Translations under genes and position numbers: made by a program
NCBI GenBank assembly: GCA_037447655.1
Contig: JBBHKE010002665.1
Location: forward strand, 9,318-73,317
Length of the DNA stretch: 64,000 nt
Direction: 5' to 3'
Source of the DNA: Zygnema cylindricum
Lineage: Eukaryota; Streptophyta; Zygnematophyceae; Zygnematales; Zygnemataceae
Notes under the pieces: model-generated
What the model was told of the DNA's origin: nothing
Database searches by the model: none
The model's input: the letters and a program-made list of their open reading frames with translations, nothing else
Shown: positions 9,181 through 63,472 of the stretch, one piece after another
How the letters are laid out: each line of letters starts with the position of its first letter
How positions within the stretch are numbered: the first letter of the stretch is position 1

Positions 9181-9182
9181 TA

Positions 9183-10540: not shown

Positions 10541-10542
10541 TA

Positions 10543-10987: not shown

Positions 10988-10995
10988 TAACAACA

Positions 10996-11564: not shown

Positions 11565-11572
11565 TAACAACA

Positions 11573-12130: not shown

Positions 12131-12133
12131 TAA

Positions 12134-12905: not shown

Positions 12906-12908
12906 TAA

Positions 12909-13600: not shown

Positions 13601-13619
13601 AAATATTCTATAGTCGATT

Positions 13620-15840: not shown

Positions 15841-15895
15841 CATACGGAACACATTAAATAAAATATCGTTACGAAAAAAATAGAAAAATCAGCTA

Positions 15896-16433: not shown

Positions 16434-16435
16434 TA

Positions 16436-19020: not shown

Positions 19021-19078
<58 letters not shown>

Positions 19079-19576: not shown

Positions 19577-19769
19577 CTGCAGAAAACGACAAAAAGGGAA
19601 GGGAGGGGGGGGAAGGGTGAGGATGGTGTGGATTGGGGTGGGAAGTGGGGAATGGGGGAGGGAGGGAGAAAGAGAAAAAAATAGAGAGAGGCATAGAGGG
19701 ACAAAGAGAAAGAGGTGGAGAGATAGAGAGGAGAGAGATAGAGAGGGGAGAGAGAGAGGGGAGAGAGAG

Positions 19770-19779
19770 NNNNNNNNNN
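19770..19779. other. Assembly gap of 10 N
   Basis: Ten ambiguous bases at the end of a GA-rich run. The left side is a kinase intron and the right side is repeat sequence, so real DNA of unknown length, including the kinase 5' exons, may be missing here. Confidence 0.95.
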
Positions 19780-19999
19780 CACTAACACTGGGATGACGGT
19801 AGAACCAAACGTAGGCAGAAAACACCTTCAGCATCAGGATAACCCATCAACCGTGATAGAAAGTACAAACCCGCTAAACCCTAACCACAAACAACCCTTG
19901 CCTCTTCCCAGAACGACCAAGGCCCAATGCCTTTGCCTCCTCAGTTCCTCCGGAATAGACAAAGCCACAAACGCCCTCTCTAAAGCAGAGGAGAACAAC

Positions 20000-21111
20000 A
20001 GTTGCAATGCAAAAAGGGACTACAAAAGAGAGAACAAAGATACTTTCACTTAGAATAATAAAAAGATAAAATATAGATATGCTGTCTCAGAATTAACAAT
20101 ATCACCTTGCCCTTGAAAAATAGAGAATTAAGGTAGAATGTGGAATGATAGCAAGCAAGCTCAACCTACCCCCAAAACGTAACGTTGACAACAAGAGGAG
20201 ACGAAATCTCTCCCGCAAACACCGAAACAGATAAGGCCTCCTTGACTCCTCCGTTTCCGTAACCCGGAACCAGCAAGACCCTTCTCCGTTCCCAACAAAC
20301 ACCAATCCCAAATCGCCCAAACATGAAAGATAGTGCCAACTACCCAATAGGACTACGACTTCCACAAAAGACGGATGCAAACCAAGATGGCAGTAGGGTC
20401 ACAATCACATACAAAACAAAAGTTCTCCACAAGAAAGTTTGCTAGAATTTCGAGGGTTTTTCTCCAGAGACAGTACTGACATAAGAACCTGTCTCCTTCG
20501 GCCCCAAGTGCCTTATACAAAGCAAAGTTTGTCCTACTGACAGTCCCAAAGTCAAAGCAATCCCCAGATCCTATCAGCGGCAAGGAACTGTTATCGTAAG
20601 GACATAAGACAAAACAGATTGTAATACACTCAAGGCAAAAAATTATGCGACTAGCTCCGGCTAGATTGGAAGCCAAATGTTATTCTATAATACACTTCTG
20701 AGCACAAAGTTCTGAATCGACGTGAAACACCTAACTTTGACTTAAGGTAATAAATGCTCTACCTGTCGGTGGACCAGAAGGAACCTCGTATAGACAGCCA
20801 ACAACAAAATCTACAAGATTATCCCAAAAGTTACGCAGCGTTCCACAATGTAGCCCCCAAAGTGACAGGTGGAGACTGGTCGCATATAACAAAAATGGTA
20901 ATCTTAAAACGTAATAACTCCGTCTTCAGGCCTCCGTTAGGCGCAAAATAAATTGCGTTCCGCTCAGTTTGGAAAATATAAGAATTTTGTTTGGTTGGGT
21001 ACACTCTTTCCTCCGTACTTTGATGACCGTACAGGGGAGATAGGGCCCAAAAATCCATGGTAATCTAAGGAAGTGTCGGTAAAGCCAACGAGCTTGAAAG
21101 TTGTCGAACAT
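20000..21111 (-). mobile_element. 3' LTR of the minus-strand methyltransferase-bearing gypsy element
   Basis: It is colinear with 44320-45424, the putative 5' LTR of the same element, over about 1.1 kb. Shared blocks include GGCAAGGTGATATTGTTAA, CTAGCCGGAGCTAGTCGCAT and TGAGCGGAACGCA. In element orientation it starts near 21111 with TG and runs to about 20000, where similarity fades. Substitutions and indels are frequent, so the element is old. The exact end is uncertain. Confidence 0.6.
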
Positions 21112-21374: not shown

Positions 21375-22790
21375 TTAGTCAACCGTGACTAAGACATTTG
21401 AATAATTACCCGCCCAATTCGCAGTTCTCGCATAACCAGAGTGTAGAGGGCTTTGGACGAGGGTCCCAAGAGGAGGGGAGGCAGGATGGATGCCATCACT
21501 GGTCACATCTATCACATACAAGGACAAGATTATGAGAGGAGGACAAGAGGCAGCCAGAGGAACATGATGGGGAATCGGCAAAATAGGTGAGGTGGAAAGT
21601 AGGCTCGTCTTCCAATCCCCGGATGTGACAGGGAGAACATTGATCTGATTTTCCTTAATTTTCCGACCGTCTTTTCCTTCCAGTGTCATAGCACCCGTAT
21701 TAGAAACCTCCACCACTTTCAAGATCACCCTTCCCGTCGAAATGTCAAGAATGTTTTTTTTTTTTTTTATCCGATACACGAAATCCCCGGGCAAAAATCG
21801 CCGTTGCCGCCCTACAAAATTCCCGCTCCGGCATTGCGAATACCAAAGTTGATCTCGAAGCTGAGCTGCTTGTACAATCCCCATGGCTAGAGGCATTTCT
21901 TGATGAAATACCTTGGCCATGTCGGCAATCAGTTTCTCAACCGTCCCCTTCCTATCCATCTCCGGAAGGACCACTTCTTCGGCGAAGGCGGCGCCGGGTA
22001 TGATTGGATGTCATCCGAACAAAATGAAATAAAGACTGTAGGAGTGGAGGGAGGCTTGTCGGGTGAATGTGTACCCTATGACAATCTAAGGCACCATTCT
22101 ATCCCACTCTCTTAAATCATCTTCCACAACATATTTGCGCAGTAACCGCTTCACTCTCTGTACGCTCCTCTCGGCCAAACCTTCGGATTGTGGGTGGTCT
22201 TGGCTAGTAAGTTGGTGGTCGATGAGGCTCAATTCCAACAAGTTGGTGAATTCTCCCGCAAATTCGGAGCCCTGGTTGGTCAAAACTTCGGTTGGGGCCC
22301 CAAATTCGGACAACACTCTTTGCAAGAATGGGTTCGCAATCACCTTGGACTCCTTCTGGGTAAGACCACCAATTTGATCCACTTGGAAAAATGCTGTATC
22401 ACTACCAATACAAAGCGGTTCCCTCATCAGCTAGTGGGGAGAGGACCGTGCAGATCAAAAGAGCACTGGTAAAACATTCTCGGATTGGAGGGGAATGATG
22501 CTGGGCGCTTCTCTTTTTGTCGAAAGCTGCTTTGACTCGGTCAAAGGAAGGACATGTATGCACAATCGGGTTGACTTGGGTCCGCAACCTGTGCCATGAG
22601 TACGATCCTGTGAATAGGGAAGTGGTATGTTTTTGCCCAGAATGGCCACATTGTTGGTGGAGGCGAAAAATAAGAGTCTCCCAATCGGCTAAAGGAGGAA
22701 CCACTTTCCTTGTACGGTCTGCCCATTTCTTGATTAAAATGCCTCTCTCCCATTCGTACGGCCCCATTCAAGCTTGAACCCGGTATAACT
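21375..22790 (-). pseudogene. Gypsy integrase with C-terminal PHD-like finger (broken)
   Basis: Frames at 22402-22767, 22086-22427 and 21375-21974 together cover an integrase. The N-terminal His/Cys region includes HQQCGHSGQKHTTS and HTCPSFDRVK. The core includes FGAPTEVLTNQGSEF, where the second catalytic Asp has become Asn, and SEGLAERSVQRVK, which keeps the Glu. A GPY/F-like module reads RRFLPGDFVYRI, then VILKVVEV, then LEGKDGRKIKENQINV. In a shifted frame at about 21412-21565 a zinc finger reads CSSGC, VCDRCDQ, stop, WHPSCLP, WLCENCE, the Cys4-His-Cys3 spacing of PHD fingers. Frameshifts and stops make it inactive. No chromodomain is present. Confidence 0.75.
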
Positions 22791-22799: not shown

Positions 22800-23400
22800 A
22801 CAAATGGGAAAGGGGAGAACTATGCCCGAACTATGTGAGCCCTGGATCCCATTTGCGATGCATCGAAAACAAGTGGAGCTCATAGAATATGCTTGACTTG
22901 ATTCTAGTTATGGGCGCACTGTTTTCTTTTGTCAGCTCTCAGGTGAACATTTTCCAAAACGTACCCCACTGGTGTGTCTTGGGACTGCTACAACCAAAAA
23001 GTTAATTTGATCATCTGGAAGAAGGTTTGACTTCTGCTGTCTTCATGTTCCTCGCCTTTCCCTGTTAGAGAGTATCCTTGACATGGCCATCGTGCTGTTA
23101 CCAGATCTACTCGCTCCAGCCTAGCTAGATGAGGTTTCAAGATATTGTCTATAATTGGTGGAAGGATTCGGTGAGATCTGGAGATGGCGGATACTGGAAG
23201 TTGCTGGGGATACAATTGGTGGAGCTGTTGTAGTCGGTGTTCACTGACGACCTTAGCCTCAGGTAAGATTTCCACGGCCACATAAGACTCAACTTTATAT
23301 CTCGCTTTTAATACAGCCTCTAGTTCCGAGCTAATTCCAAAAATCAAGGATAAAAATTGAAGACCCGAATCCGGAATTGATAATGACACCACTTGTCGAT
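22800..23400 (-). pseudogene. Cytosine-5 DNA methyltransferase domain inside the minus-strand gypsy element (truncated)
   Basis: Motif I-like FLSLIFGISSELEAVLK is followed by VESYVAVEILPEAKVVSEHR. Motif IV is VDLVTARWPCQGYSL, with the catalytic Cys of PCQ at 23081-23083. Motif VI is LENVH and a motif VIII-like stretch reads APLVFDASQMGSRAHIVRA. In this family the PCQ Cys attacks C6 of cytosine and the ENV Glu assists. Two stops lie between motifs IV and VIII. Homology then ends and the integrase begins about 30 bases later, so motifs IX-X, RT and RNase H are deleted relative to the plus-strand copy. Confidence 0.8.
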
Positions 23401-24476
23401 GGAATATTGGATGTTTTAGTGGCCCCTCTAAAGATTCTGCCTAGAAAGATTCTGCGCGAGGCTTTTTCTCCCTGGCAATCACAGCTGCAAAGGACAAGTC
23501 CACTTCCCGCCGAAGTGTTCTTATCTGTCTTAATCTGGTTTGGTATCCCTTTTCTCACCGATTGGAAATAGGGAATTGCTATATTACGTCTGGGATATTG
23601 GTGGCGCTGGCGAGCAGTTCTGTGGGAGTGTGGGTTGCATAGACAGGAAAACATCCGGCTACGAAGCATTGTTTTTCCTCCGATTTTATAGATCTACGAG
23701 GACCACCACCTTGACCCCTTCCTGATCCTCAAGATCCCATATGGTAAACTGTTCCTTCCACATATTCAACCTTGTCCAGGTGGCTACTCCCAGAGAATTT
23801 CAAACTGCTTACCTTCCACCACCAAGAAGGGACGCTGAATTCAAACCTTTTGACCCGCGTCATCGGAGAACTCGATTATCATAGCTTTGATTATTCCATG
23901 GACATGCAGGCTCCCACTGCTAACAGTGCTTAGGTAGATGTTACTGGGTCAGATTTTTGGTCGGAGTTCTTCAAGCATTTGTTGCAGAGCCGATGTGGTA
24001 ATTAGATTTGGGAGTGCTTCGGTATCGACAACCGCATCTTGATATCCGCTGTATCCGTGGAGTTTGAAATTTCTCGTCCGATTGAGTATGAGCGCCACAG
24101 ATGACGTTTTATAATCCGTATTAGTTATAGGTGTCTTTGGGTCTGCTAAACAAAAGATGTATCTGGCCTGATTGGCCCGATCTCTGTTCTCCCCCCCTGA
24201 GTGAATCTCCTCTCCGAGGGCTTGGATGAGATTTTCTTCCATCAAGTTATGGGAAGATGCTAGTATTTTCATGTGAGTGAGGGCGTAGGGCATTAGATGC
24301 CTTACAAACATCATTGCTGGTTTGAAGGAAGATGGTTGAGTTTTTGACGACGTAATGGGGGAATCAGCTAGTTCCTTCAATTTTTCTTGCTCCCCACCTC
24401 TCGTTTCCTCACTTTCTTGGTTGGATTCCTGTTCCGGTGGCGTTTCGGGTGTGGTATCTTCCTGACGTTTCGCCAA
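23401..24476 (-). pseudogene. Gypsy aspartic protease and flanking linker (broken)
   Basis: The frame at 23949-24476 (175 codons) has a charged linker, then VRHLMPYALTHMKILASSHN, and ends with DAVVDTEALPNLITTSAL. The last part aligns with retropepsin (I/V)D(S/T)GAxxNxI, except that the Gly after Asp-Thr is Glu. The plus copy at 50585-51634 has the same DTE. The C-terminal half of the protease (FEILLGMATWT-like in the plus copy) lies in broken frames down to about 23700, before the methyltransferase. Confidence 0.6.
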
Positions 24477-37750: not shown

Positions 37751-37763
37751 CTCCCCTTATTTT

Positions 37764-45424: not shown

Positions 45425-46190
45425 CTTTGGGGGGGTACATTGTAGATAGCCACGTAATTTTTGGGGTTTGCATCTAGATTAAGCTGTTAGACGTCAGTTG
45501 GAATTTAGTTTAGGCACTGTTGACCTTTGGTCCATTAACTACATTAGGTCAAAGTATGGCAAGTTAGTGTCCTTTTCAAGACTTTGTCTTGTAATAGTGG
45601 ACCAAATAATTACTTCCGACCGCGGATCTAGCCGCAGTCTGGAGCAGAACCTTTTGCCACGAGTTTAGTATACATTATTTTGTCTTGTGTCGGTTCCCTT
45701 ACACTTGCATGCCGCTCAATAATTTATAGCGTAGCTTTGACTTTTGGACTTGCAATTTTACAAACTTTGATGTTTAAGGCGCTTGGGGTCGAACAAGACA
45801 AGTTGCTTTTCTGTACTCTCACCTGTGAAAACTCTTAGAAATTCCAACAAACCTTCTTTTGGAGAATCTTTGATTTGTTTGACTCTATTGCCATCTTGGT
45901 TTTGGATATGTCTTTTGTGGGAATCACAATCCCGGTGGGTAGTTGGCACTATTTTATTTTTCGGTGATTTTTGGACTTTTTGCTGTTTGAAACCGAGAAG
46001 AGTTTAGCCGGTGCCGAGACGTGGACACCGGAGGTTGAAGGAGCACCATATCTATTTACAATGCTATTGGGAGAGGGATCGCCTTTCTCTCGTTGTCATC
46101 GTTTATTGTTGGGGTATGTTAAGCTTTCTTCGCTATATTTCACATTCTCTTTCTTTTATTCTCTTTTCTAGGACAAGGTGATATTGTTAA
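45425..46190 (+). mobile_element. 5' LTR of the plus-strand gypsy element, 5'-truncated
   Basis: It aligns with the minus-strand LTR read in reverse, starting mid-LTR at GGGGGTACATTGT (compare GGGGGCTACATTGT) and ending near AGGACAAGGTGATATTGTTAA. The first 250 bases or so of the LTR are absent. The head-to-head junction therefore looks like a rearrangement rather than two neighbouring insertions. Confidence 0.55.
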
Positions 46191-46540
46191 ATCTAGAATG
46201 CTAATCCTGTTACCTAAATAGTTCTACGTGGTAGTGCATTTGTGTCTTCATGTGGAGTTCTCTTTGCTTTGGAGTGAACCTCTCGGAGTAGACTAAAACC
46301 CCTTGGATCAAGATAGTGGGTTTACAGAGAACATGTGCGATCGACTTCTCGTAAAGGAAACACAATACTGAAATGCCACCTGTCCACTCGAATTGGAGGG
46401 GATAAGAGCTTTGACTTTGTACGCTCTCTTTTTGGAAGTGAGCTCTAGTTACATTCATTAAATTTTTGCTCATTACCTGTGACATCATGGGGGAATGAGA
46501 GACTCCGGATAATGGATCCGATAAGTAGGGTCAAGAGGAG
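46191..46540 (+). other. Leader of the plus-strand gypsy element
   Basis: Between the LTR-like region and the first gag frame at 46541. No clear primer binding site or other gene seen. Confidence 0.4.
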
Positions 46541-49625: not shown

Positions 49626-50584
49626 GGAAGCAAGTAGCAAAGAGCGGGTCAAAACTAGCAATGGGAGCAGATGAGCGAGTGTTCTTTTACAATTGTATGA
49701 ATTGTCACTAACCAGGCCATAGGCGGAAGCACTGCAGCCGAAAATTGAAACCGGAGCTAGCACTAAAGCAGAAGGAATGGGAAAAAGAACGTGCAGAGAG
49801 GACCCGAAAGTAGCAAGAACGGCTCAAATGAGAGGGGGGGTGGGAGAAAACACCGGTAACCAAGGATACTTACCGCCCAAAGCCCCGGAGCGAAACCTCT
49901 AAGATATCCCAATCTTAGTTGCGACAAATCAAACTTCCAAAGTTTGATGAGGCTCAAATCTCCAACGAGATCCTGATTAAATATACCACCAAGGGCGTTA
50001 AGTATGAAGCTTATGGTTTTCTTGGCCACAAGGAATGGCAATGTTTCCGGAAGAACGAAGTTCCTAAGGAAATGATGAAATTTGCTTTGTTTACTGGAGA
50101 GGGGGAAATGGCTATTAACCCCCTCCCACTTTAACTTCTTTACCCTTGGGGGCACCAAGTTCCGTCCCCGCCGGAGAGACGTTAGCGGGCATCGGTTGCT
50201 CCGACAAGGCTTTTGCCGGAAATCATCATACAGCAATAGAGTCAGCAAACTAGCCGCAATGGCTGTAGAGTTAGCTGCCTCCGCTTGAAGTCTTATTCTC
50301 AAGATGCTCTCTTAGTGCAAAGCATAATGACTCCAAAAGCAAAAACATGAGTTGATACAGTCAGCGTAACTTGAGCTTCAAGCACAGTGAATGCCAACGA
50401 TGACGACTTATTGGGTTAGGATTTGGAACCCCCAAATGCCCACCATGCCCAAACTTTCCTGTCCGGAGCTTGGAATGTTAGGGTGGGAGAGAGTCGCTGC
50501 CAACTCCGCAATTTCACCTCGATGCAAAGACAAGACAGGCAGAAAATGGGTTAGAGGGATCACAACCGAAAAACTACAGGGCGT
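49626..50584 (+). pseudogene. Gypsy gag nucleocapsid region, plus-strand element (broken)
   Basis: At about 49680-49745 a zinc knuckle reads CMNCH, stop, PGHRRKHC (C-x2-C-x4-H-x4-C), followed by the basic stretch KLKPELALKQKEWEKERAER that is also found in the minus copy at 25400-25560. A frame at 49919-50134 follows. Stops prevent translation as one protein. Confidence 0.6.
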
Positions 50585-51634
50585 TTGTCATTTACTCTCA
50601 AGGCAGTAATACTGTACATCAACATTGGCCAAGGAATCAAATCCAATCACCCACCATCTCTTCCTTCCAAACCTAAATTGCCTTCCGGTTTTGAAAATTA
50701 CCAGAATGAGAAACAACAGCAAGAGAAGGAGTCACTGGAAGAAGAAAAGAAAGATAATCACGACTGGTTTGAAAAATATATGGCAAAATGCTCGGAGAAT
50801 GACACTCCCCAAACACTTCTAGTCGCAGAATCCGGCTCCGAGAGTGAGAAAGAAGAACAAAATCAAGATCCGCAGCAACCGAACTCATCCCCATCTTCAC
50901 CGAAAGCAACCATTCTTTCCTCTAAACCGGTTGATATGCTAGTCCGGCACCTCATGCCATTTGCCCTCACAGACGTGAAGACTCTAGCATCCTCCCACAA
51001 CCTGTCTGAAGAAATCCTCATTGAGGCATTGGGAGAAGAAATCCACTCTAGAAAAGGGAGGGTTGACAGGGTATCCTCGCCAATGGCAGGCTTTTTGTCC
51101 ACAAACCCGGAAACACTTTTAGTGGATAGGGACTACAATGCCTTATGGGCTTTTATACTGAACCGAATAGGAAACTTCAAGCTCAGCGCGTACAGGGGAT
51201 ACCATGACGCTGTGGTCGACACCGAAGAGCTCCCTAATCTCATCACCACCTCTGCTTTTAAAAAAATGCCCGAGGAAATCCGGCCTGAAATCTGCCCAAG
51301 CAATATCTACTTAAGCACTGTAAGCAGCGGCAATCAACTAGTCCATGGAATAATCAAGGCCATGGAAATCAAGTTTTCTGATGACACACGCCAACGGGTG
51401 AAAATTGAGCTTCTCTTCTGTGTGGTGGATGGGACCCAATTCGAAATTCTGTTGGGAATGGCCACTTGGACCCGGCTCAATATGAGTTTGAGCATATGGA
51501 AGGAACAATGTACCGTTCGAGACCCCGGAAATCCGGAACGAACCACAGTGGTGGTTCCTTTAGATTTAAGGAACCGAATAAGACAAATGTCCCAGTGTTT
51601 GGTTGCTACCCAGTGTACACTACATCATCTTTGA
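50585..51634 (+). pseudogene. Gypsy aspartic protease region, plus-strand element
   Basis: A 349-codon frame. The first half is an acidic, low-complexity linker. Residues about 115-190 match the minus copy (VRHLMPFALTDVKTLASSHN). Near residue 215, DAVVDTEELPNLITTSAF aligns with the retropepsin active-site stretch, but has Glu where Gly is usual. The C-terminal part (LLFCVVDGTQFEILLGMATW) resembles the second half of retropepsins, where ILLG precedes the last strand. The frame lacks a normal start, because it is part of a polyprotein. Confidence 0.65.
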
Positions 51635-51726: not shown

Positions 51727-52740
51727 TTGCAGGTAGCAAAACTCTGGCGGGGAGTGGATAAGGCGATTTCAGCCTTATCATTAAAAGAAGTCGTTTCTAC
51801 ACCATTTTCTAATGCTTCCAAACACAAGTTTGATAACGAGGAGTTCAATCGACAAGTGGTGTCATTGGCAGTCTCCGATTCCGGACTGCGTATTTTATCT
51901 TTATTTTCAGGAGTTAGTTCCGATTTGGAAGCGGTTTTGAAAACATGATACTAGGTGGAGTCATACGCAACCATGGAAATATTACCCGAGCCTTCAGCTG
52001 TCAGCAAACACCGCCTCCACCAATTTCATCACCTATATCCTCAACAGCTACTGGTGACCTCCTTTTCCAAAGCTCACAGGAGCCTTCCCCAAATGTAGAA
52101 AACATCATGGCGACCGATCTAACCAATTTTGGAAAAGTGGATTTGGTGTCGGCAGGCTGGCCTTGTCAAGGATACTCCCTCGCGGGACAAAGGAAAGGGC
52201 ATCAAGAGCGCAGAAGTGGAACATTTTACCGGATGATTAAATTAATCAAGTGGCTTCAACAGCTACAAGACACACCGATGCGGTTCTTTTTGGAAAATGT
52301 CCACCCAGGTGATGATAGAAGAAAACAAGTTGCAGACAGCTGGAATCATGTAACCCGGATTTTAGGAGCTCCCTTGGTTTTTGACGCCCCACAGATTGGA
52401 TCCCATGCACACAGAGTAAGGGCATATTGGAAAAATATGATCGCGCTTCTAGTACTCCAACGACTGCTGGACACACAAATTCCCGACCCCCTGAATTCGG
52501 TGAAGCAAATACTTAGGGAAGGCAAAATGGCCACCTTGTGACGCGACCAAACTACTCTCCTTTCTTTTGGTGTAATAAACCGGGATTACTACGAAAAATA
52601 CTCCTGATTTTGGCTTCTTTCCCTAACAGACACGCTTATCAGAAAGTAGTAGCGGGAATGATTTTTGACAGTAAGGCGGGGATTTGGGCAGCACCAACAA
52701 TTGCAAAACGAGAAGAAGCAATGGGATTTCATAAAGGCAC
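51727..52740 (+). pseudogene. Cytosine-5 DNA methyltransferase in the plus-strand gypsy element, main part
   Basis: Motif I is LRILSLFSGVSSDLEAVLK (about 51886-51942), the AdoMet-binding strand and loop. TGA (51946-51948) and TAG (51952-51954) follow, then VESYATMEILPEPSAVSKHR, then a frameshift. Motif IV is VDLVSAGWPCQGYSLAG, with PCQ at 52161-52169. Motif VI is FFLENVHPG, with ENV at 52293-52301. A motif VIII-like stretch is DAPQIGSHAHRVRAYWKN. A motif IX-like stretch is APTIAKREEAMGFHKGT, ending where copia B2 is inserted. The HxHRxRxxWxN form and SGTFYRMIKLIK resemble DNMT3/DRM enzymes more than DNMT1 or bacterial Dcm, by eye. It is flanked by gypsy protease and RT, so it is part of the element. 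Domain order and the catalytic Cys, Glu and Arg are kept, but three lesions and one insertion inactivate it. Confidence 0.85.
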
Positions 52741-53629
52741 TGAAATTCTGTGGTCTCGATTGACCCACTGAATGAGCAGCCTATGTAAAGCCTCTAGGAT
52801 AATATTTGCCCCTTCTACTTTACCGCTGAATAAGCGCTTCCCATGCACCCAAATATTCTGAATACTCTCACCCCTCTGAGGACAAGACTACCCATAGTCA
52901 AACGCAAAAAGAATCACTGAATTTGCTCCCTTGAGCTGTAAGTTATGGCTGGTCAAAGATGACCTTTATAGTTACAAGCTCTCTTAGAGAGAGAGGTACC
53001 TAAATATTACTAAGTCTTGGTCTGCCTACTCACGACTACCTACTACTAAACACTAGTCCAATAGGAACACTATATAGTACAAGAAGGTACAATGGGCGAT
53101 GTACTTATTGTACAACCATTATACGACAAGGTTTACAAGGTGACACCTGTCTAATCGGAAGCCATGGTTCCTCCTCCCATCTTCTCCGGTATCAAATAAT
53201 GTGGTGCCACTTGGCACCGCGTGACGCTATATTCGTATGCTGCCAAAAGCTCACTTCGCGTGGCGGCTATAATGCCGGTCGTCCAATCAAAACATATTTT
53301 ACATGGTTCAGATTCGCGTACATGCAGGAATTGCTCCTTTTGGTTAGTCTGCTGTTAATAAATTGTTGCGTTAATGTATATGTATTTATGAAACCCTTCA
53401 CGTATGTCGTTTCGTAACGCCTTAATGGTTAAGGCGTTAGACTATAGAGAATCTAGAGGTCGCAGGTTCAAATCTAGACTTAGGCATCATTTTAGCAAAA
53501 TACCCTTTACTTCAAAAACTGCCACTTTCTAAATATTGCGGCAGCCATGGCGCGCCTTTCATCCTCACTCTCTTTCTTTAAAGAAAAACTAAAATAGGGA
53601 AGTGAACTATTAATTACCTCTTTTCAACA
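52741..53629 (-). repeat. 3' LTR of copia B2
   Basis: 889 bp. It includes at 53414-53486 a tRNA-like stretch with the palindrome CGCCTTAATGGTTAAGGCG and the B-box-like GGTTCAAATCT. Confidence 0.85.
53414..53486 (+). other. tRNA-like segment in LTR B
   Basis: TAATGGTTAAGGCGTTAG resembles a tRNA A box and D arm, and GCAGGTTCAAATCT a B box, 30-40 bases apart. The same segment is at about 58735-58805, 30250-30320, 35605-35675 and 28330-28400 in other LTR B copies. It lies antisense to the copia genes. The T stem is weak, so this is a tRNA-like promoter module at most. Confidence 0.45.
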
Positions 53630-53639
53630 CTCCCCTTAA

Positions 53640-56600
53640 TTCCTAGTCACTTTTCAATTTTAATCCACAGTTTTCTCTGCAATAAATCAACTTAGGGGAA
53701 GGCACTGATTTTGTCATCATGTTTGCAATCATTTCTCTATCAGTTTTATGAACCAATTTAATAATTTTATTTTCTACCTTCTCTTTGACAAAGCTTGGTC
53801 TAATATCCATATGCTTAGCTTTGAAGTGATGTTTCGGATTAGCTGCAATAGAGATAGCAGCTTGATTATCACAAAAAACATTTTGAGTTCCAAACTTCAT
53901 GAACCCATGTTCTTTAAGAAGAGATTTCACCCACATTAATTCTTTGGTGGTAGCACAGGAAGCCATGTATTCAGCCTCCATAATGGATTGAGCAACTAAT
54001 TTTTGTTGCTTGCTACTCCAACAACATGCACCAGATCTAATTTGCAACACATATCTAGTCTTACACCTCCTTAAGGCACATCTCCATAACTGGCATCACT
54101 CCAAGTGGTGATGTGAGTGTGCTCCCCTCCCAAATGCAACCATAATTCCCTTGTCCCCACCAAATACCTCATCACCCTTTTTAGTAGCCTACCAGTCTCT
54201 CTTTCTTGGTTCATTTAGATTTCTACTAAGGACACCTACAGCTGCAGCTATATGCGGACGGGTACAGTTTATAAAATAAATTAAGCTCCATATAATCTGT
54301 CGATAAGGGATATTTTCCATAAATCTTCTTTCTATCTCATCCATCTCATCATTAATGATCAATATTCCTCCCTCTTCACACCCCCCACACACTTTTTTCA
54401 AATCCATAGGAGTAGTACATCCGTTTGCTTTCTCCATTTGAAATTTTTCTAGCATATTACTAATATTTTCTTTTTGAGTTAGTCTTATAATCCTATTCCC
54501 TCTATCTCTCTACATTTGAATTCCCATAATGTACTTTGCTTCGCTGAGATCTTTCATGTCAAAGCGGGTTCTAAGATCTTGTTTTAGTTTGTTAATTTTA
54601 TCTAAGGACTTGCTTAAGACCAACAAATCATCCACATAAATAGCAATAAATATCACTCCATCCTCATCCTCAAATATTTATATGGAGTGATCTGAACTAA
54701 TTCTGATATACCCCAAACTGGTCAGAAATTTGTCAAGCTTTATATTCCACTGTCGCGGGGCTTGCTTAAGCCCATAGAGTGATTTTATCAGTTTGCAAAC
54801 TTTATTTTCTTCCCCACCTTCCACGAAACCTTCCGGTTGCCTCCTGTAAATTTCTTCTTCTAACTCTTCGTGCAAAAAGGCCGTTTTAATATTCATCTGG
54901 TGGATTTCCATATCCTCCGCTGCGGCTATACTTAAAAGGATTCTAACCGAAGGAAATTTCACTAGAGGTGCAAAGGTTTCTTCGTAGTCTATCCCCTCTT
55001 TTTGAGTATATCCTTTTGCAACTAACCTAGCTTTGTTCCTCTCAATGGTATTTTCCGGATTTACTGTAAGTTTAAAAACCCACTTACATCCAATCGATTA
55101 TCGGTTCGGTGGACAATCTACCAACTCCCATGTATAGGCTTCCATAATAGAGGCCATTTCTTCATTTATAGCTGTGATCCACCGGCTACTTTTTGGAGTG
55201 TTTATGGCCTCTAAGTATATGTGAGGTTCATCTGGGTGAGACATCTTTGTGAGTTGGTTTTTTACTTGTCTTTCTTGAAGTCGTTTATTACTTCTTCTCC
55301 CCCCTTCAAAATCGGACGCCGGTATAGAAGGAATCCTTGAGTTTCGTTTAGGGAGATTTTCAGCTCCCCTATCTTCCAATTCCGGTGTCTCATCAAGTTC
55401 CTCATCGATTTCCACTTTGTATTGTGGCGTTGCCTCGGATGTTGTCCTTTCCTCCTTCTCCTTTGGTAGATCTGCAGATTTTTCTTTTTCTCCCTCTTCT
55501 TTCTCTTCATTTTCAAAATCAAAGGTAGAAAACTGATCCGTTTCAAATCTTATTTTGACTTCCTTATTATATTTGAATGGATCAATGGACCTCTCTTCAT
55601 TTATCTTTACTATGTGTTTCACTTAAATTATATCTTTCTTTTTCAAGTCATACACTCAGTATCTTTTTGTGCTCTCATCATATCCTACAAGATATCCTAG
55701 GTTCCCTCTTCCCTCTAACTTCCATTTAGTCTTATCGGAATCCAAACTGTAGACTTGAACTTTGAACACTCTCAAACTAGACAAATTAGGTTTTCTTCCT
55801 GTCCACCTCTCATACGGAGTTTCCTCCTTATTTGCTGAAGTTAGGACTTTATTTTTGATGAAATGAGCATAGTTCAAAGACTCCGCTCAAAACTACAACC
55901 CTATCCTCTAATCAGTTAACATACTTCTGGACATATCTCCTAAAGTTTTATTCACTCTTTCTGCTACTCCATTTTGTTCAAGATTATAGGGAACAGTTTT
56001 CTCATGATGAATTCATTTTTCCTTAAGATATTCTTCGAATTCCCTTGAGGTGTATTTTTTCCCATTATCACTTCTTATCTCTCTTATTGAGGTTTTAGAA
56101 GTTTTTCACTCCATACTTTATACTCTTTGAAACAGCTTAATAACTCGGACTTATGTCTGAGAAAGTATACCTTCGGTATCTAGACCAATCATCTGTGATG
56201 GTTAACATCCATCTCTTCCCCCCATGTTAAGCATACCTAGCAGGTCCCCAAAAATCAGTGTGAACTAGATCTAATATTTTCTCTCTCCTAAATGTGGTTG
56301 CCTTTGGAAATGGAAGTCTATGAATCTTCCATTGGGCACATCCACTATAATCATCAATGGTCTCATCATCCTCAAAAGTAATACCCTTCACTATTCCTTT
56401 TTTCTTCATTTTCTTTAATCTATCTAGATGCACATGCCCCAACCTTTTATGGCAAAGCATCATCTCACTTGCACGCGAGTAGAGAACACTCTTTTCATTG
56501 CAAAGAACAATTTTGAACATTCCTTGATTGCCTTTCTCAACTATGAAATAAACCTCATTATCAAAGCTTGCTGTGAAGATTCCTTTCCTAGTTCTTGTTT

Positions 56601-58057
56601 CATACTCATTTTCATCTAAGAAAACTGTTGAGACCAAGTTTTTACTAAACTGTAGAATGTAAAGAACGTCTGAAAGTGTTACAATTGAGGCCTTTCCTTC
56701 AACTAGAACCTTCAAGTCAACAGTTCCAACAAGACTTGTGGTTTCTACTCTACCATCTTCGTACTTTATCTCAACTCTTGGAATCTTTCTCAGTTTAGTG
56801 AACCACCTTTTATCTTTGCACATATGCATTGAGGCCCCTGAGTCTATGATCCACCAATCTTTAAGTGGTTCCCTCTTACCTTTGAAAGCACAATTTTGTC
56901 TCCGTGGAATGTCAACATGCTTTTTAGTGTTTTTCGGATTAAGAACAAGCTCCTCAAGCTCCTCATCTAGTTCAGTTTTTCCTTCCACTTCCTCATCATG
57001 AACTTGAGTCACGAAAGCCTTTTTCTTTCCTACATCAATTGAGGTTCCCTGACCATCTTTCAGTCGAAGATCTGCAAGTTTGGCACAATCTGCCATATAG
57101 TGTCCCGGTTTCTTGCAAAAGTGACATAATCCTCCTCGAGAAGTTCCTCTCCCCTGTCTATCAAATCTGCCACCTCCTTGTCCTCTTCCACCAAATTTTT
57201 GATAGGGATCTTTCTCTCTCTCCTCATCACGCTTCCGCCAATCAGCGCGTGCAGACAATGCTTGAACACTTGGACTCCCTCTCTTAAGCTCTATGGTGAT
57301 TTCTTTCCCTAAAATCATTCCCAATGTGTCATCCCAATTCCAATTGCTATCTCCCATGTCCTGCAATTGGTTAATGATATTCTCATACTCTTCAAGTATT
57401 TTCATCATTAATGTGTTCACTCTTTGTCTCTCGGACCATGAGTTACCTGCACTCTCTAACTCTCCAAATAATGCTCCTAAATCATTGCAATAATTATTCA
57501 TACTTCCTCCTTTATACGTATAAGCTGCAATCTTATTTTCGGCCAACTGTTGTTGCTGCAATGATCCTCTCTTATATTTATAAACTAGTGATATCCAAAT
57601 CTGAGATGGAGATTTGACATGCATAAGAGAAATGGCAATGCCCTTTGCTACACTTTTAAGAATTAAGATCTTAGCAACCTTGTCTTTGTGGTTCCACTTT
57701 TCATACTCTAAACTTTCTGTCTAAACCCTTGTCGCCGTTTTTGGTGGTGCTGCTGCCGATATCGCCTTTGGCAATGGTGTCACTTGAGTTGGAACTCCTC
57801 CCTTTTCTCATTCCATGACAATGTCCTCTCTTTCCTCATCTTCATCCTCGGTGATGGTGGCAACAGTTCTACCAACTGTAGAGGCGGAGGTGCCATAAAA
57901 ATGTGTCCCTCCAATCCCAAGTGGAGGTGGGAATCGAATTTGTCTAGACACTATGCCCTATAGATGCTTCTAAAATTTTTCTCCCTACATCATTCTTTCC
58001 CAATAAATAAAGTCTGATCCATCAAATATGGGCACCCTAAAGGGTGGGCCGATAACC
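53640..58057 (-). pseudogene. Copia B2 gag-pol (broken)
   Basis: The largest frame, 56227-57624 (465 codons), covers gag, a zinc knuckle CHFCKKPGHYMADC, the protease IIDSGASMHMCKDKRWF and the integrase zinc region CHKRLGHVHLDRL. Further fragments are integrase tail 55656-55877, linker 55098-55622, RT 54678-54962 and 54189-54455, and RNase H 53643-54050 (SKQQKLVAQSIMEAEYMASC). The start codon inside the LTR is mutated (ACG at the position of ATG). The element cannot make its own proteins. Confidence 0.85.
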
Positions 58058-58946
58058 TGAAATTCTGTGGTCTCCGTTGACCCACAGAATGAGCAGCCTA
58101 TGTAAAGCCTCTAAGATTATATTTGCCGCTTCTACTTTCCAACTGAATAAACACCGCCCAGGCACACAAATATTCTGACCACTCTCACCCCTGTGAGGAA
58201 AAGACTCTTTTGAGTCAAACGCAAAAAGAATCACTGAATTTGACCCCACTGAGCATTAAGTTATGGCAGGTCAAAGATGACCTTTATAGTTACAAGCTCT
58301 CTTAGAGAGAGAGGTACCTAAATATTACTAAGTCTTGGTCTGCTTACTCATGACTACCTACTACTAAACCCTAGTCCAATATGAACACTATTTAGTACTA
58401 GAAGGTACAATAGGCGATGTACTTATTGTACAACCATTGTAAGACAAGGTCTCCAAGGTGACACCTGTCGAATCGGAAGCCATAGTTCCTCCTCCCATCT
58501 TCTCCGTTATCAAATAATGTGGCGCCACGTGGCACCGCGTGACGCTATCTCCGTATGCCGCCAAATGCTCACTTCGCGTGGCGGCTAAAATGTCGGCCGT
58601 CCCATCATAACATATTTTATACGGTTCAGATTCGCGTACATGCAGGAATGGCTCCTTTTGGTTAGTCTGCTGTTAATTAGCAGTTGCGTTAATGTATATA
58701 TATTTATGAAACCCGTCACGTGTATCGTTTTGTAACGCCTTAATGGTTAAGGCGTTAGGCTATAGAGAATCTAGAGGCTGCAGGTTCAAACCTAGACTTA
58801 GGCATCATTTTAGCAAAATACCCTTTACTTAAAAAATGCCACTTTCTAAACATGGCGGCAGCCATGGCGCGCCTTTGATCCTCACTCTCTTTCTTTAAAG
58901 CAAAACTAAAATAGTGAAGTGAACTATTAATTACCACTCTTGAACA
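58058..58946 (-). repeat. 5' LTR of copia B2
   Basis: 889 bp, ending CAGAATTTCA in element orientation. It is followed by GGTTATCGGCCCACC, the half-tRNA primer site with one mismatch. Confidence 0.85.
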
Positions 58947-58951
58947 GGCAC

Positions 58952-59060
58952 CACGGCAGCACGAAGTAATTCAGACCTTTAAAGGTGCATCTTAATTGGG
59001 CACAGTATGGATCTTAATTTAATCACATGGGTACTCAAGCATGCACTCGCCTTATCCAGT
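58952..59060 (+). pseudogene. Methyltransferase C-terminus (motif X-like) after copia B2
   Basis: Continues the frame broken at 52740: GTTAARSNSDL, a TAA stop, then RCILIGHSMDLNLITWVLKH. This fits the end of DNMT3-type domains, where an RLLGRSW...VI-H-F stretch closes the AdoMet site. Joining it to 51727-52740 gives a methyltransferase of near-normal domain length. Confidence 0.65.
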
Positions 59061-59610
59061 CTCAAGTCCCAGAAATCCTGGGCTATTTTCCTTCAAGCTC
59101 CTTAATTTTTAGCGATGCAGGCAACTTTGCAGCTTGAGGGGGGGAGAGAAAACAGAAGAAAAATTCACATTTCACTACCGCAAGTTTTCCCAGTGGGGGG
59201 GGGCGGCGGCTCAGATGGCGACAGCTTAGCGAAAGTTGTCAGCAGTAGCGTCCTAGCCGGAGGAGTAGAGGCAGATGCATTTGTAGGATTGGAATTCGAC
59301 ATTAGCCTCTGGGGTAAACCGCTAAAAGCTTGGGCTCCTTAGAGCTTGGGAAAATGGATTGGACACTAAGGGAGCAGTTTCATACTTAACAAAAGGCTCG
59401 GCTCTCCGAGCTATAAGCCGAAAATAAACAAGTGTTCTCATGGTCAGAAACAGGTGTCAATATTTACAAAAGAACACCTTTCCAAATCGATTTGATCAAC
59501 GAGACGGCTACTATTTGGCAGAAGCACTATCCTCTCAATTTCAAGGAAAAATAATTCATCACGGCTAAATTACAGACTTTGGTGGAAGCTAGATTGGTTC
59601 AAGAAAGTAC
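59061..59610 (+). pseudogene. Gypsy RT, N-terminal fingers region
   Basis: The frame at 59115-59342 is linker of unknown role. At about 59480-59610 broken frames read FQIDLINETATIWQKHYPLN and then LQTLVEARLVQEST, the stretch that precedes RT catalytic blocks in gypsy elements. It is interrupted at 59615 by a solo LTR and resumes at 60690. Confidence 0.6.
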
Positions 59611-59615
59611 AGGAC

Positions 59616-60323
59616 TGCAATTCTGTGTCCTCCATTGGATCACAGTATATAAGAAGCCTCTAGATAGTATTTAACTAACCCACTTTAAGCCACAACCACT
59701 GCTGTCTAGGAAGGCAAAATGTCAATTTGACTGCACCCCTGTGGAGCGTGGACTCCCTTGAGTCCGTAGAAAAAAAAATTAATGAAATTGGCCAACCAAC
59801 CGATAAGTTATGAGGCAGTAAAAAATGCCAATTTGTACAAACTCTTTAAGGGAGGGTTGACTGCCTATCAAAATTTTCTAAGTCCTGATTCCCTCAAATA
59901 ACTTCTACCTACTAAAGTATGGACCAATCAAATTACTGTACTGTACCAAAAAGTACTACAGCCGGTGTACCTTTTGTACGCCCTATGCACGACAAAGCTA
60001 TTAAGCGGACGCATGTCTACTTTTCACTCGTTCGTACATTCCTTGGAATTCCCATGACCGAATGTCATCTCTCCAGGTGGCTCTAGGTCATTCTACGTCA
60101 CAAAACACCAAAGTGACCACTCCGGAATTTCGGCGATGATGTGCGCCGTTGAATTTGCAGCGATACGCAATCTTAGCCGTTATAAATACTTGCGCGATAT
60201 TTGTTTCGCTGTCTAACAAAATGCGTGGTATCCGTTTTTGAAATTGAATCATACTTCGTACTTTCATAAAACTTTATCTATGTGTGTCGTATACAATTTT
60301 AGTTAAATGGATTTGTTCCTCCC

Positions 60324-60382
<59 letters not shown>

Positions 60383-60684
60383 ATCACATACTATAGCATT
60401 TAGCATTGGTCCTAGTCTTATAGGATAAAGCTGACCGCTATCGGCCAACTTGACGAACCGAAGGTACCGGGATCAAATCCTGGGTCCGTCAGGTATATTT
60501 TTAGTAACCTACTAATAATAACTGCTTGTTGAACTAAGGCAGTCATGGATCAACCACCCTCTCTATCCTTCAGTGACTACAACAAGTATGGGGGCTAGAG
60601 AGAGGAGGTGGAGGCAGGTTGCCCGTCCTTTTCACTTACATATTTAAACCTAGAAAATACTCTAGAAATCTACTAATTTAAGCA
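59616..60684 (-). mobile_element. Solo LTR, family C, 1069 bp
   Basis: Begins TGCAATTCTGTG and ends TTTAAGCA on the plus strand, with a perfect 5 bp duplication AGGAC at 59611-59615 and 60685-60689. It is distantly like LTR A and LTR B, hence the minus orientation. A tRNA-like stretch with GGGATCAAATCCTGGG lies near 60417-60490. It interrupts gypsy RT. Confidence 0.85.
60325..60380. repeat. AT dinucleotide microsatellite in LTR C
   Basis: About 27 AT units within the solo LTR. Length is probably variable and hard to sequence. Confidence 0.85.
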
Positions 60685-60689
60685 AGGAC

Positions 60690-61210
60690 TTCATGGGTCC
60701 GCTTCCTCGACAGTTCTCCCTCCCAAGAAGGATTCTTCCCGGAAGGTTGTAGATTTTTGGATGTGTGGAGATTATCGCATGCTGAATACGACCACCATCT
60801 TTGATCGATATCCGATGCCGACCCCGAAAGAGATATTTGACTCCTTTGCTAGCGCCACTATCTACTCCACTCTGGACATGAAGAATGGTTTTTGCCAGAT
60901 TAGCGTGGAACTGAAGCACAGGGAGAAAACCGCATTTTCGGCCGGTTTTAGACTTTATGATTGATTTATATGCCATTCTGGCTTAAGAATGCAACGGCCA
61001 AATTCCAACGGGCAATGGACCAAGCGCTCTGAGGAATTGATTGTGCGCGGTGCTATATTGATGATGCTATTATATTCTCAAAGACTTTTGAGGAACACCT
61101 GGAGCATGTCCAGATCGTTCTCCGGGCACTCAAAGTAGCCAGCTTGAAATGTCACCTAGGCAAAGGTATTTTTGGGGTACAGAAGATCATCTACCTTGAA
61201 CATGAGGTGA
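60690..61210 (+). pseudogene. Gypsy reverse transcriptase, palm region (broken)
   Basis: Reads RKVVDFWMCGDYRMLNTTT, DRYPMPTPKEIFD, YSTLDMKNGFCQISV and EKTAFSAGF in frame 60761-60964 and its upstream extension. After a stop and frameshifts come CYIDDAIIFSKTFEEHLEHV, with the YIDD catalytic box near 61052, and SLKCHLGKGIFGVQKIIYLEHEV. Catalytic Asp residues are kept, but the frame is not. Confidence 0.8.
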
Positions 61211-61379
61211 CTCTGGGACTGTGGGTCACCACATGGTCAAAGTGGCAGCCTTTGACGTTCTCCCCCCACCGCAGGACATCTCGGCCATTCGCACCTTCTG
61301 GGTCTGGCCAAATACATCGCCGGTTTATTCCCGAGTTCAGTAGTCACACTCAGCCCCTTAACTAGCTATTGCGAAAGGA

Positions 61380-62030
61380 CCAAGAGTGGCAGTGGGCCGA
61401 AGAACAACAGATATCCTTCCAGTTCTTGAAGGATGCTCTGAAGCAACACTCGTGCTCCGGATGCCTAATCACCAAAGGACTTTCCTCCTTTATACCGATT
61501 AGAGCAGGTTTGGATTAGGAGCAATTTTGCCTCAAATGGATGATGCTAGAGATGAATATGTAGTGGCCAACGCCAACCAGAGCAACAACACAGCAGAGGG
61601 GAATTTTATCAGTTACCACGGAGAGTTACTTGTAGCAGTTTAGGCCATTCAGCATTTCCGACCTTATTTGTACCGAGTCCATTTCACCTTGGTTACCGAT
61701 CACCAACCCCTAAAATGGATCATGAAAAATAGTAAGTTAACCAACAAACTTGCCAGATGGGTTCTTACCCTACAGGAATATGATTTCGACATTTTTCATT
61801 GGGCAAGGGAAATCAATGGGAATGTTGACGGACTTAGCCGGAACCTTGATCCCTCCACAATAGATTCTACCGGAGCTCGGCATGATGAGGACCCTGAGAT
61901 GAGTCTGGGGTTCATTCGAGCATCCTGTGCTTTCATCTGGCTTCCCCAATCTGGGGGTGAACTATCAACTTTTTCGACCAACGTGGAGGGGCAGGCGCCA
62001 ATAGGGGCCGGATGGAAAGACATCTAGAAC
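61380..62030 (+). pseudogene. Gypsy RNase H (broken)
   Basis: Includes LYTD, stop, SRFGLGAILPQMDD, then YHGELLVAV, then frame 61668-62027 with VHFTLVTDHQPLKWIM, ARWVLTLQEYDFDIFHWARE and NVDGLSR. These match gypsy RNase H in order. The Asp of the first strand and the DHQPL stretch are present; stops break the first half. Confidence 0.75.
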
Positions 62031-62079
62031 GATCCCGATGCTCTCCAATCTATCTAGCGAAGGTCGCCTCTTCCCCAAA

Positions 62080-63290
62080 TAACTGGAATTGAATTATCCC
62101 GATAACAGACCAAGGTGGCTGCTATGATTGGGACGAAGATGTTCTTCTTTGGAAATGGTCAGACGGCACAAAGAAAGTGGTTCCTCCCCCTCTGACCGAG
62201 AAACTTTTATTTCCAATCTCCATCGGCAATGTGGACACTTTAGGCAAAAGCGGACCACCTCCCTAGTTACAGGCTCTTAATGGTGGCATGGGTTGTCGAC
62301 CCTAGTCAACTGAATTGTGCAAACTTGCTCCTCATGCGATCGAGTCAAGGCGGTTTTTAACAAAAAGGGCCGGACTGAGCTTCATTCGCTTCCTATCAAG
62401 TGGATGATTTATCGATGGTCGTTGGATATTTTGGGACCTCTTCTGACCAGCAAGCGTGGGAACTGCTTTGTGCTGGTCATGATAGAACATTTTCGAAGTG
62501 GATCGAGTTGGTGGTTTTACCTAGGAAGGAGTCCAAGGAAATTGCAAATCCCTTTTTGCAGATGGTTTTAGCCAAATTCGGGGCGCCTGCCGAAGTTCTA
62601 ACCGACCAAGGCTTCGAATTTGCCAGAGAATTTTCCAACCTCTTGGAAAAATGCGTGGTCGACCATCGGCTTACCAGGCGTGACCACCCTTAAGTCGACG
62701 GTTTGGCCAAAAGGTCCGTGTAGACAGTGAAACGGTCACTACGAAAACATGCAGTTGAAGAAGATTTGGGGGAGTGGGACAGAAAAGTGCCTTGGATCAC
62801 TATGGGTTACACATTCAGCAGGCAGGCTTCTCTCCACTCCTATATCCTTTTTTTCATTCTCTTTGGACGGCATCCCTTCTTGCCCGGGACTGCATCGGCC
62901 CAATTGGTGGTCCTCCGGAGATGGATGCCAAGGGGACTGTTGAAAAATTGATCGCCAATAGAGCCAAGATATTCCACCGAGAGACACCTCTCGCCATGGG
63001 AAATTTGCAAGCGGCTCAACACCGAGATCAGTTATGGTATTCTCAACGCCGGAACATGAATTATGTTCCCTGGCAGCGACGATTTATACTGGGGGACTTT
63101 GCCTATCGGATGCAACAAAAGAAGGACACGCTGGATATTTCTGCCGCGAGAGTAATTTTGAAAGTGGTTGAAGTCTCCAACAAAGGGGTTTTTACATTGG
63201 AGGGAAAGGATGGTCGACGAATTAAAGAGAATCAGATCAATGTTGCCCCTTGCAATCTCCGGGGATTGGAAGACGAACCCACTTTCCACT
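62080..63290 (+). pseudogene. Gypsy integrase with GPY/F-like module, plus-strand element (broken)
   Basis: N-terminal HRQCGHFRQKRTTS and QTCSSCDRVKAVF form the His/Cys zinc region. The core has WSLDILGPL, FGAPAEVLTDQGFEF and VDGLAKRSV, where the third catalytic residue Glu has become Lys (the minus copy keeps Glu). Frame 62774-63445 carries the C-terminal module RRFILGDFAYRM, ARVILKVVEVS, LEGKDGRRIKENQINVAP. The module is of the type that binds DNA and dimerises. No chromodomain follows. Confidence 0.75.
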
Positions 63291-63294
63291 TAAC

Positions 63295-63472
63295 TTACTT
63301 TGCCAATCCTCCTTCTTGTTCATCAGTTTGCACTCAGTCCTCCTATCAACACGACATATTTGTCTGCAATCAGTGTGGTCAGTGTTGGCATTCAGCATGT
63401 CTCCCCTCCTCTTGGGAGACACACCCTCTACCCTCCAGCACCTAGTTTTGTGGGAACTGCGAATGGAAGGGG
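63295..63472 (+). pseudogene. PHD-like zinc finger at the integrase C-terminus
   Basis: In the integrase frame: CSSVC, 11 residues, CNQC, GQCW, HSAC, about 14 residues with one in-frame TAG, then CGNCEWKG and a stop. The Cys4-His-Cys3 pattern and the W-H-x-x-C-L core are those of PHD fingers, which bind histone H3 tails. The minus copy at 21412-21565 keeps the pattern with different substitutions (CDRCDQ, stop, WHPSCL, WLCENC), so it is an element domain and not chance. Confidence 0.7.

Follow-up and report, generated by a model that had tools for sequence, protein, structure and literature searches.

A Ty3/Gypsy-type retrotransposon lineage with a predicted DNMT3-type cytosine-5 DNA methyltransferase and a PHD finger in Zygnema cylindricum

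RESULTS

Two Gypsy-type copies encode a methyltransferase after the protease

The DNA analysed, referred to below as the window, is a stretch of 64,000 nucleotides from Zygnema cylindricum (assembly GCA_037447655.1, contig JBBHKE010002665.1, positions 9,318 to 73,317 of the forward strand). An earlier note, made from its letters alone, had proposed that a Ty3/Gypsy-type retrotransposon family present in it carries its own cytosine-5 DNA methyltransferase. Comparison of the window with itself showed 64 kb of eukaryotic DNA crowded with nested long terminal repeat (LTR) retrotransposons. Three of these are Gypsy elements or remnants: element C on the plus strand, with an LTR-like region from ~45427 and coding remains from ~48.5 kb to near the window end; element A on the minus strand, from 26551 down to 20012; and fragment B, also on the minus strand, from 45413 to 44321, which does not cover the methyltransferase region. 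C and A are two inactivated Ty3/Gypsy-type copies whose domains run gag, protease, methyltransferase, reverse transcriptase (RT), RNase H, integrase and PHD finger, A having lost the middle part. The presence in both of a cytosine-5 DNA methyltransferase downstream of the protease, as predicted from sequence, is confirmed. Its pieces, including the element inserted into one of them, are listed here (relatives P0001-P0004 and L003 are described below; ORF, open reading frame):

51850..52089, plus strand: C, methyltransferase, starting ahead of motif I and ending ahead of motif IV, with two stops in frame (alignment with A and relatives)
52092..52541, plus strand: C, methyltransferase motifs IV (PCQ), VI (ENV) and VIII (HRVR) and what follows, in ORF 51918-52541 (PF00145; relatives-only profile)
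52538..52740, plus strand: C, methyltransferase motif IX (KREEAMGF), in another frame (tblastn with P0001, P0002, P0003 and L003; profile 1.1e-15)
52741..58946, minus strand: insertion within the methyltransferase of C, a Copia element that does not belong to the gene (LTR pair, flanks, Copia ORFs)
58983..59102, plus strand: C, methyltransferase motif X (LIGHSMDLNLITW), severed by the Copia insertion (profile E=0.0065; LGQAMDxN of the relatives)
22823..23398, minus strand: A, methyltransferase motifs I-VIII in one frame, three stops (relatives-only profile 2.4e-36)

The ORF at 51918-52541 (plus strand, 207 aa) matched PF00145 (DNA_methylase) with E=8.2e-13 and 48.9 bits (cut-off 22), and read-throughs of the two copies with stops marked as X scored 48.8 bits (C) and 29.4 bits (A) against the same cut-off. 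A profile built from five outside relatives, and including neither window copy, recovered C at 1.5e-49 and A at the value listed above, together with the separate motif IX and motif X pieces of C; the reversed window, used as a control for this profile, yielded a single match with E=0.7. Motifs I, IV (PCQ), VI (ENV), VIII (HRVR) and IX (KREEAMGF) of C align to the relatives, and its motif X (LIGHSMDL) corresponds to LGQAMDxN in them, the 40-aa piece that matched the profile being assigned to 58983-59102 by frame and length. In 6/6 alignment rows PCQ and ENV are unchanged, as are the H and the second R in motif VIII.

All six motifs (I, IV, VI, VIII, IX and X) thus occur in C in the order that the earlier note had read by eye, across broken frames and the Copia insertion. 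The recognisable domain starts near 51850, and two in-frame stops and two frame changes precede the Copia element, which cuts the gene at motif IX and leaves motif X on the far side. The note's treatment of 51727-59060 as one coding stretch does not hold, since the minus-strand Copia element occupies 52741-58946. The minus-strand copy, said to bear the same domain at the same place, does bear it, 58% identical in protein to that of C over the shared stretch, but A (23398-22823) keeps only motifs I-VIII and then runs into integrase, without the remainder of the domain, RT or RNase H. Two of its motifs are worn (motif I, FSG to IFG; motif VIII, HRVR to HIVR).

The domain has been under purifying selection

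In the methyltransferase, substitutions between C and A number 56/31/99 at codon positions 1/2/3 over 191 codons. The ratio of non-synonymous to synonymous substitution rates (dN/dS) was 0.14 over 186 stop-free codons, a value to be taken as approximate since dS, at 1.77, is near saturation and two copies were compared; the two wrong frames gave 0.90 and 2.67. The same comparison gave 0.10 for the protease and 0.30 and 0.31 for two parts of the integrase, and the LTR read as codons gave 0.94, 0.67 and 1.00. Bootstrap ranges of the ratio of non-synonymous to synonymous differences (pN/pS) were 0.24-0.38 for the methyltransferase, 0.15-0.32 for the protease, 0.29-0.63 for the two integrase parts and 0.59-1.31 for the LTR in three frames. 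The methyltransferase was therefore kept by purifying selection while the C and A sublineages diverged, and the near-saturated synonymous distance makes these sublineages old. Selection of this kind says that the domain helps the element; it says nothing on what the domain does.

Both copies that keep the region carry the domain. As far as two copies allow, neither of the signs that the note had named as pointing to chance insertion of a host gene was found, that is, family members lacking the domain or copies standing apart in a tree (support for their pairing, 99/99). Together with the selection just described and the outside relatives presented next, this upholds the proposal of a Gypsy family with its own methyltransferase.

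Relatives combine the same domains in long polyproteins

Protein searches that admitted only sequences of similar length returned nothing: 0/405 candidates at E<=0.001 with the 207-aa ORF, and 0/3448 with the two-copy alignment. The relatives are long polyproteins. When long proteins were admitted, a third search found four relatives among 2430 candidates at E<=10 (jgi and ena contigs):

P0001: 8.8e-58, 41% identity; methyltransferase-RT; ends before integrase
P0002: 1.3e-55, 39% identity; methyltransferase-RT-RNase H-integrase
P0003: 9.2e-51, 38% identity; gag-protease-methyltransferase-RT, protease below the Pfam cut-off; ends before integrase
P0004: 4.3e-23, 31% identity; RNase H-methyltransferase-integrase-PHD, a different order

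Each of the four is a single protein that has PF00145 alongside RVT_1, rve or both, and in P0001 to P0003 the methyltransferase runs into RT in one open frame. The methyltransferase follows the protease in C, A, P0003 and L003. In P0004 it lies between RNase H and integrase, unlike in the other members; the 334 residues that follow the PHD finger of this protein look methyltransferase-like by eye, and Pfam returned nothing for them at E<=10. These two peculiarities of P0004 concern residues 345-690 and 1233-1579.

Scanning bacterial and archaeal genome contigs gave 74 pattern matches, among them one confirmed locus, L003 (CADCWO010000201.1), a Gypsy-type element filed under an uncultured cyanobacterium metagenome-assembled genome. 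It is probably eukaryotic carry-over in that genome, whose source sample we take to be desert soil crust. The element is open from gag to PHD finger with a single in-frame TAG, its 5' end being cut off. ORF1 (3-3491, open at the contig start) encodes gag, protease and methyltransferase (PF00145 6.8e-12; protease matches below cut-off), and ORF2 (3492-6635), after the TAG, encodes RT, RNase H, integrase and PHD finger. The junction reads TAG CAATCA (L003:3489-3497), the sole TAGCARYYA on that strand of 8197 bases. Some plant viruses and the SIRE1 element have TAGCARYYA as a leaky stop context, which makes this site a candidate readthrough signal. No TAGCARYYA site occurs between the methyltransferase and RT of C, and the leaky-type stop is known from L003 alone. 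The scans of viral contigs each confirmed one locus, a phage Dcm-like gene on one contig (L001, L002), which was used as outgroup.

The enzyme is nearest to DNMT3

In a comparison of the 6-row profile with the PDB, 29 of the 57 sequences at E<=0.1 were DNMT3A, DNMT3B or DNMT3C, and none was named DNMT1 or CMT. DNMT3A was the best match (1e-16, 64 bits), followed by HhaI (2e-9, 40 bits), DRM2 (1.7e-6) and DNMT2 (5.6e-6). Motif VIII, AHRVRAYWxN, resembles the AHRARYFWGN of DNMT3 and not the QxRxR form of HhaI and DNMT1. By nearest sequence the predicted enzyme is of the DNMT3 type. Membership in the narrow animal sense, with PCN in motif IV, is not claimed: PCQ is found in 7/7 element rows, versus PCN in DNMT3A and DNMT3C.

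Trees were built from 13 rows, with the root unknown, without plant DNMT3, and with outgroups including DNMT1 and DRM2 on long branches. C and A were joined in them with support of 100/100 in one tree and 99/99 in a second. The seven element enzymes did not form one clade in the best trees; a single element clade appeared in 8% of 200 bootstrap trees and was not rejected by the approximately unbiased test (p-AU 0.40), and a clade of C, A and P0001-P0003 was neither demonstrated nor rejected (p-AU 0.24). In the first tree, DNMT3/DRM stood beside P0003 (79/38) and Dcm/DNMT1 beside P0004 (88.6/52). In these trees the pairing of the two copies came out clearly and a common clade of element enzymes did not; the note's by-eye DNMT3 assignment is supported at the level of sequence similarity. 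An origin from a eukaryotic DNMT3 and a single capture both appear likely; they are not proven, given the long outgroup branches and the missing plant DNMT3.

A PHD finger follows the integrase

After the integrase, a C4HC3 pattern is present in C (63305-63472) and in A (21576-21409), with 28/56 residues identical and one stop in each. The PF00628 match is weak in C (E=0.0015, below cut-off) but clear in L003 (4.3e-10) and P0004 (9.5e-8). P0002 has a C4HC3-like ending by eye, for which Pfam gave no PHD match at E<=0.1. Among the best 60 of 94 matches, the solved PHD fingers nearest to that of L003 were those of CHD4, PHF12, KMT2D, UHRF1, KDM5 and PHF21A, several of which bind the unmodified tail of histone H3. 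There is about an even chance that the PHD finger on the integrase reads the H3 tail and selects chromatin for insertion. The PHD finger after the integrase of C, A, L003 and P0004 appears to be new: in the openly licensed literature searched, no Gypsy element carrying DNMT3 together with PHD came up.

Remaining parts of the two elements

The other parts recognised in C and A are the following:

45427..46270, ends approximate, plus strand: C, LTR-like region, homologous to the A 3' LTR region and fragment B
49691..50089, plus strand: C, gag region with a CCHC knuckle and one in-frame stop (tblastn P0003 148-257, 24%, E=5e-6; CCHC at 49694)
51122..51517, plus strand: C, aspartic protease region, active site DTE (tblastn P0003 597-728, E=3e-15)
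59324..59620, plus strand: C, stretch directly before RT (tblastn P0001 452-550, E=1e-18)
59621..60682, ends and strand inferred, minus strand: solo Copia LTR inserted in C (blastn; gap in tblastn matches)
60683..61443, plus strand: C, reverse transcriptase (PF00078 3.7e-5 and 1.4e-4, both below cut-off; tblastn P0002 53-61%)
61473..62054, plus strand: C, RNase H (PF17917 E=1e-13; tblastn)
62123..62915, plus strand: C, integrase, zinc-binding and core domains (PF00665 E=1.5e-8; tblastn P0002 58-71%)
63305..63472, plus strand: C, PHD finger at the integrase end, one in-frame stop (PF00628 match given above; same place as the PHD fingers of L003 and P0004)
23740..24130, minus strand: A, aspartic protease region, active site DTE (tblastn P0003, E=4.6e-11)
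21624..22477, minus strand: A, integrase (tblastn P0002 58-67%; PF00665 below cut-off)
21409..21576, minus strand: A, PHD finger, one in-frame stop (C4HC3 pattern; identity to C as above)
20012..20830, ends approximate, minus strand: A, 3' LTR region (blastn self-comparison and three-way alignment)

From 51877 to 63460, inserts apart, C follows P0002 and L003 colinearly in tblastn. Assignment to Ty3/Gypsy rests on the order RT-RNase H-integrase in C (PF17917 and PF00665 above, PF00078 below cut-off) and on the protease lying between gag and pol in C and A, as located by the P0003 protease matches. The protease active site reads DTE in both copies, versus DTG in P0003 and DSG in L003, and does so despite the strong purifying selection on the protease frame.

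The LTR homology was detected by blastn in inverted orientation (45427-46194 against 45171-44398; 45626-46194 against 20666-20089) and was also seen in a three-way alignment of C, A and B. Each element shows a single LTR-like region, in front of C and at the 3' end of A, and the 3' LTR of C falls outside the window. At 44321-45427, minus-strand B meets the LTR-like start of C head to head, and a G-rich tract lies immediately to the left of this start.

The surrounding window

The Copia element nested in C has LTRs at 52740-53629 and 58057-58946 that are 90.7% identical (blastn), and GGCAC flanks it on both sides (52736-52740 and 58947-58951). The solo LTR in C matched, over 59751-60353 and 60412-60679, the LTR at 36846-37745 (blastn). 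A young-looking Copia element occupies 36701-43154 (minus strand), with LTRs 99% identical and two long ORFs (719 and 445 aa) that are open. Host genes of kinase type, plant-like by eye only, include a protein kinase gene in two pieces at 18525-19846 (minus strand; PF00069, Pkinase, above cut-off) and a gene with a weak HisKA match, below cut-off, at 4863-5276 (minus strand). Long purine/pyrimidine-rich tracts lie at ~5.4-8.2 kb. No Rfam family at the gathering threshold and no tRNA was found within the window.

The CpG observed/expected ratio was 0.68 in C and 0.70 in A, and 0.52, 0.54 and 0.67 in three neighbouring Copia elements, so that relative to these neighbours C and A bear no CpG trace of extra self-methylation. 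A 9.5-kb part taken as unique (8500-18000) had a ratio of 1.53, versus 0.52-0.72 in the retrotransposon parts measured, which suggests that the host methylates its transposons. The test is a weak one, because all the transposons measured are CpG-poor and host methylation may hide any effect.

DISCUSSION

What the enzyme may do for the element

The explanation that best fits these observations, to which we give a probability of about three in four, is that of a Gypsy lineage whose DNMT3-type enzyme has been kept by selection. What the enzyme may do is set out next, in steps of decreasing certainty. Since the catalytic motifs are invariant, the enzyme likely binds S-adenosylmethionine and DNA and methylates cytosine. 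Being made in the same polyprotein as the other element proteins, it would probably travel with the element's own particle or pre-integration complex. Its substrate could then be the double-stranded complementary DNA (cDNA) of a new copy or the DNA where that copy inserts, a step that we regard as an open bet either way. A new copy would arrive already methylated; the host might then accept it as silent instead of treating it as naked foreign DNA, and would be harmed less. The PHD finger would guide the integrase to suitable chromatin through the H3 tail. In L003, where the methyltransferase stands upstream of the leaky-type stop, the enzyme would be produced in amounts like those of Gag, exceeding RT and integrase.

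Several observations weigh against this explanation. Enzyme function, expression and methylation are predictions, and both copies in the window are dead. The selection ratio comes from two copies at near-saturated synonymous distance, and the CpG ratios of C and A do not stand out from those of their Copia neighbours. The DTE protease site in both copies could mean that their sublineages were already impaired. The enzymes read PCQ in motif IV where DNMT3A and DNMT3C have PCN, and the seven of them do not group as one clade in the best trees. Finally, the nearest known counterpart, KnitGypsy-Dnmt3 of Klebsormidium nitens, produced no methylation in a yeast assay, a result that its authors call inconclusive (PMC5890265).

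Of the alternatives, the one that survives best, though we consider it unlikely, is counter-defence, in which the enzyme does not mark the element's DNA but disturbs or diverts host silencing, or blocks factors of the host. Selection reveals a benefit to the element and not how it arises, the PHD finger points to host chromatin, and the element shows no extra CpG loss, all of which would suit such a role; on the other side, a methyltransferase within a packaged polyprotein would most simply act on the nucleic acid packaged with it. A bacterial or phage Dcm-type source in place of a eukaryotic DNMT3 is improbable. It would account for the PCQ of motif IV, which is like that of HhaI and DNMT1, for HhaI being the second-best kind of solved relative, and for the place of the element enzymes between the DNMT3/DRM and Dcm/DNMT1 groups in small trees of unknown root. 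Against such a source stand the bit scores of DNMT3A and HhaI (64 versus 40), a motif VIII of the DNMT3 form, and the scan of bacterial and archaeal contigs, which confirmed only L003, itself a retroelement.

Two further possibilities have little to recommend them. The substrate might be RNA (genomic RNA or primer tRNA) rather than DNA: RNA is present in retroelement particles, and DNMT2, which has the same fold, methylates tRNA, but the match to DNMT2 (5.6e-6) is far weaker than that to DNMT3A (1e-16), and we hold this to be quite improbable. It is equally improbable that catalysis has been lost and the fold kept for nucleic-acid binding only, a notion that draws on the worn motifs I and VIII of A and on the stops in C, but which sits badly with the 6/6 rows, relatives included, that retain PCQ, ENV and two residues of motif VIII, the H and the second R. 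That a host methyltransferase gene or pseudogene landed by chance in one element, or that the motifs are coincidental, has a next to negligible probability: both copies are broken and lie within a nest of other elements, but the domain occupies the same place in the two, under a dN/dS of 0.14, and recurs in four outside proteins and in L003, with E values of 1.5e-49 and 2.4e-36 for C and A. A chance match was rejected on the PF00145 and relatives-only E values, the reversed-window control and the codon-position bias, and independent insertion into C and A on the shared place in the element and the pairing in the tree.

Returning to a self-methylating Gypsy lineage, a wider version of it may be put forward more tentatively, as something we would not yet bet on. 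One old Gypsy lineage, present in several eukaryotes, might pair a chromatin writer with a chromatin reader: a methyltransferase captured once and later moved within pol, dosed at Gag level in at least one member, with the PHD finger choosing the site for the pre-methylated copy.

Comparison with known elements

Chromoviruses, the chromodomain Gypsy elements, have a chromatin-reading module at the integrase end; in the family described here, by comparison, a PHD finger replaces the chromodomain, and a DNA methyltransferase is added. The earlier note had pointed to captured methyltransferases in Klebsormidium and dinoflagellates, and the literature agrees: KnitGypsy-Dnmt3 of Klebsormidium nitens has DNMT3-related domains in the Gypsy Pol under purifying selection (Ka/Ks < 0.2, the ratio of non-synonymous to synonymous substitutions), and DIRS and LINE (long interspersed nuclear element) elements of Symbiodinium carry methyltransferases (SymbioDIRS-Dnmt3, SymbioLINE-Dnmt), with de novo CG methylation in yeast by two SymbioDIRS-Dnmt3 copies (de Mendoza et al. 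2018, PMC5890265). A 2025 paper names such elements again, as LTR Copia and DIRS (PMC12344493).

The family in Z. cylindricum resembles KnitGypsy-Dnmt3: both are LTR Gypsy elements whose Pol polyprotein includes a DNMT3-related domain, intronless and non-rearranged, under purifying selection (here 0.14). This comparison is one of anatomy, as no sequence labelled Klebsormidium was among the search matches. The paper on KnitGypsy-Dnmt3 mentions DIRS-like repeats, whereas here one LTR-like region per element is present, with the 3' LTR of C lying beyond the window; the word PHD is absent from the main text of that paper, taken without its figures (PMC5890265). The Symbiodinium elements are likewise retrotransposons with a cytosine methyltransferase, but of the DIRS (with tyrosine recombinase) and LINE kinds, not LTR Gypsy with a DDE integrase. 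A non-rearranged DNMT3-type domain also occurs in plant DNMT3 (Yaari et al. 2019, PMC6453930), a candidate source of capture in the green lineage, which unlike the element enzyme is a host gene and has a C-terminal DUF3444. Among the openly licensed literature searched, no description was found of the PHD finger, of the domain order of P0004 or of the leaky stop of L003.

Precedent for such elements exists, and the present family is an informative further case of a rare kind. The methyltransferase is a lasting part of the element, not the accident of a single insertion. The paradox of a parasite that carries the same kind of enzyme as its host uses against parasites was known, in the literature searched, from two algal lineages. 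The further members described here add a methyltransferase under selection, four cases of a PHD finger, a second domain order and the nearly open L003, and they make it possible to test whether a retrotransposon benefits from methylating the new copies of itself and whether it picks the chromatin in which to do so.

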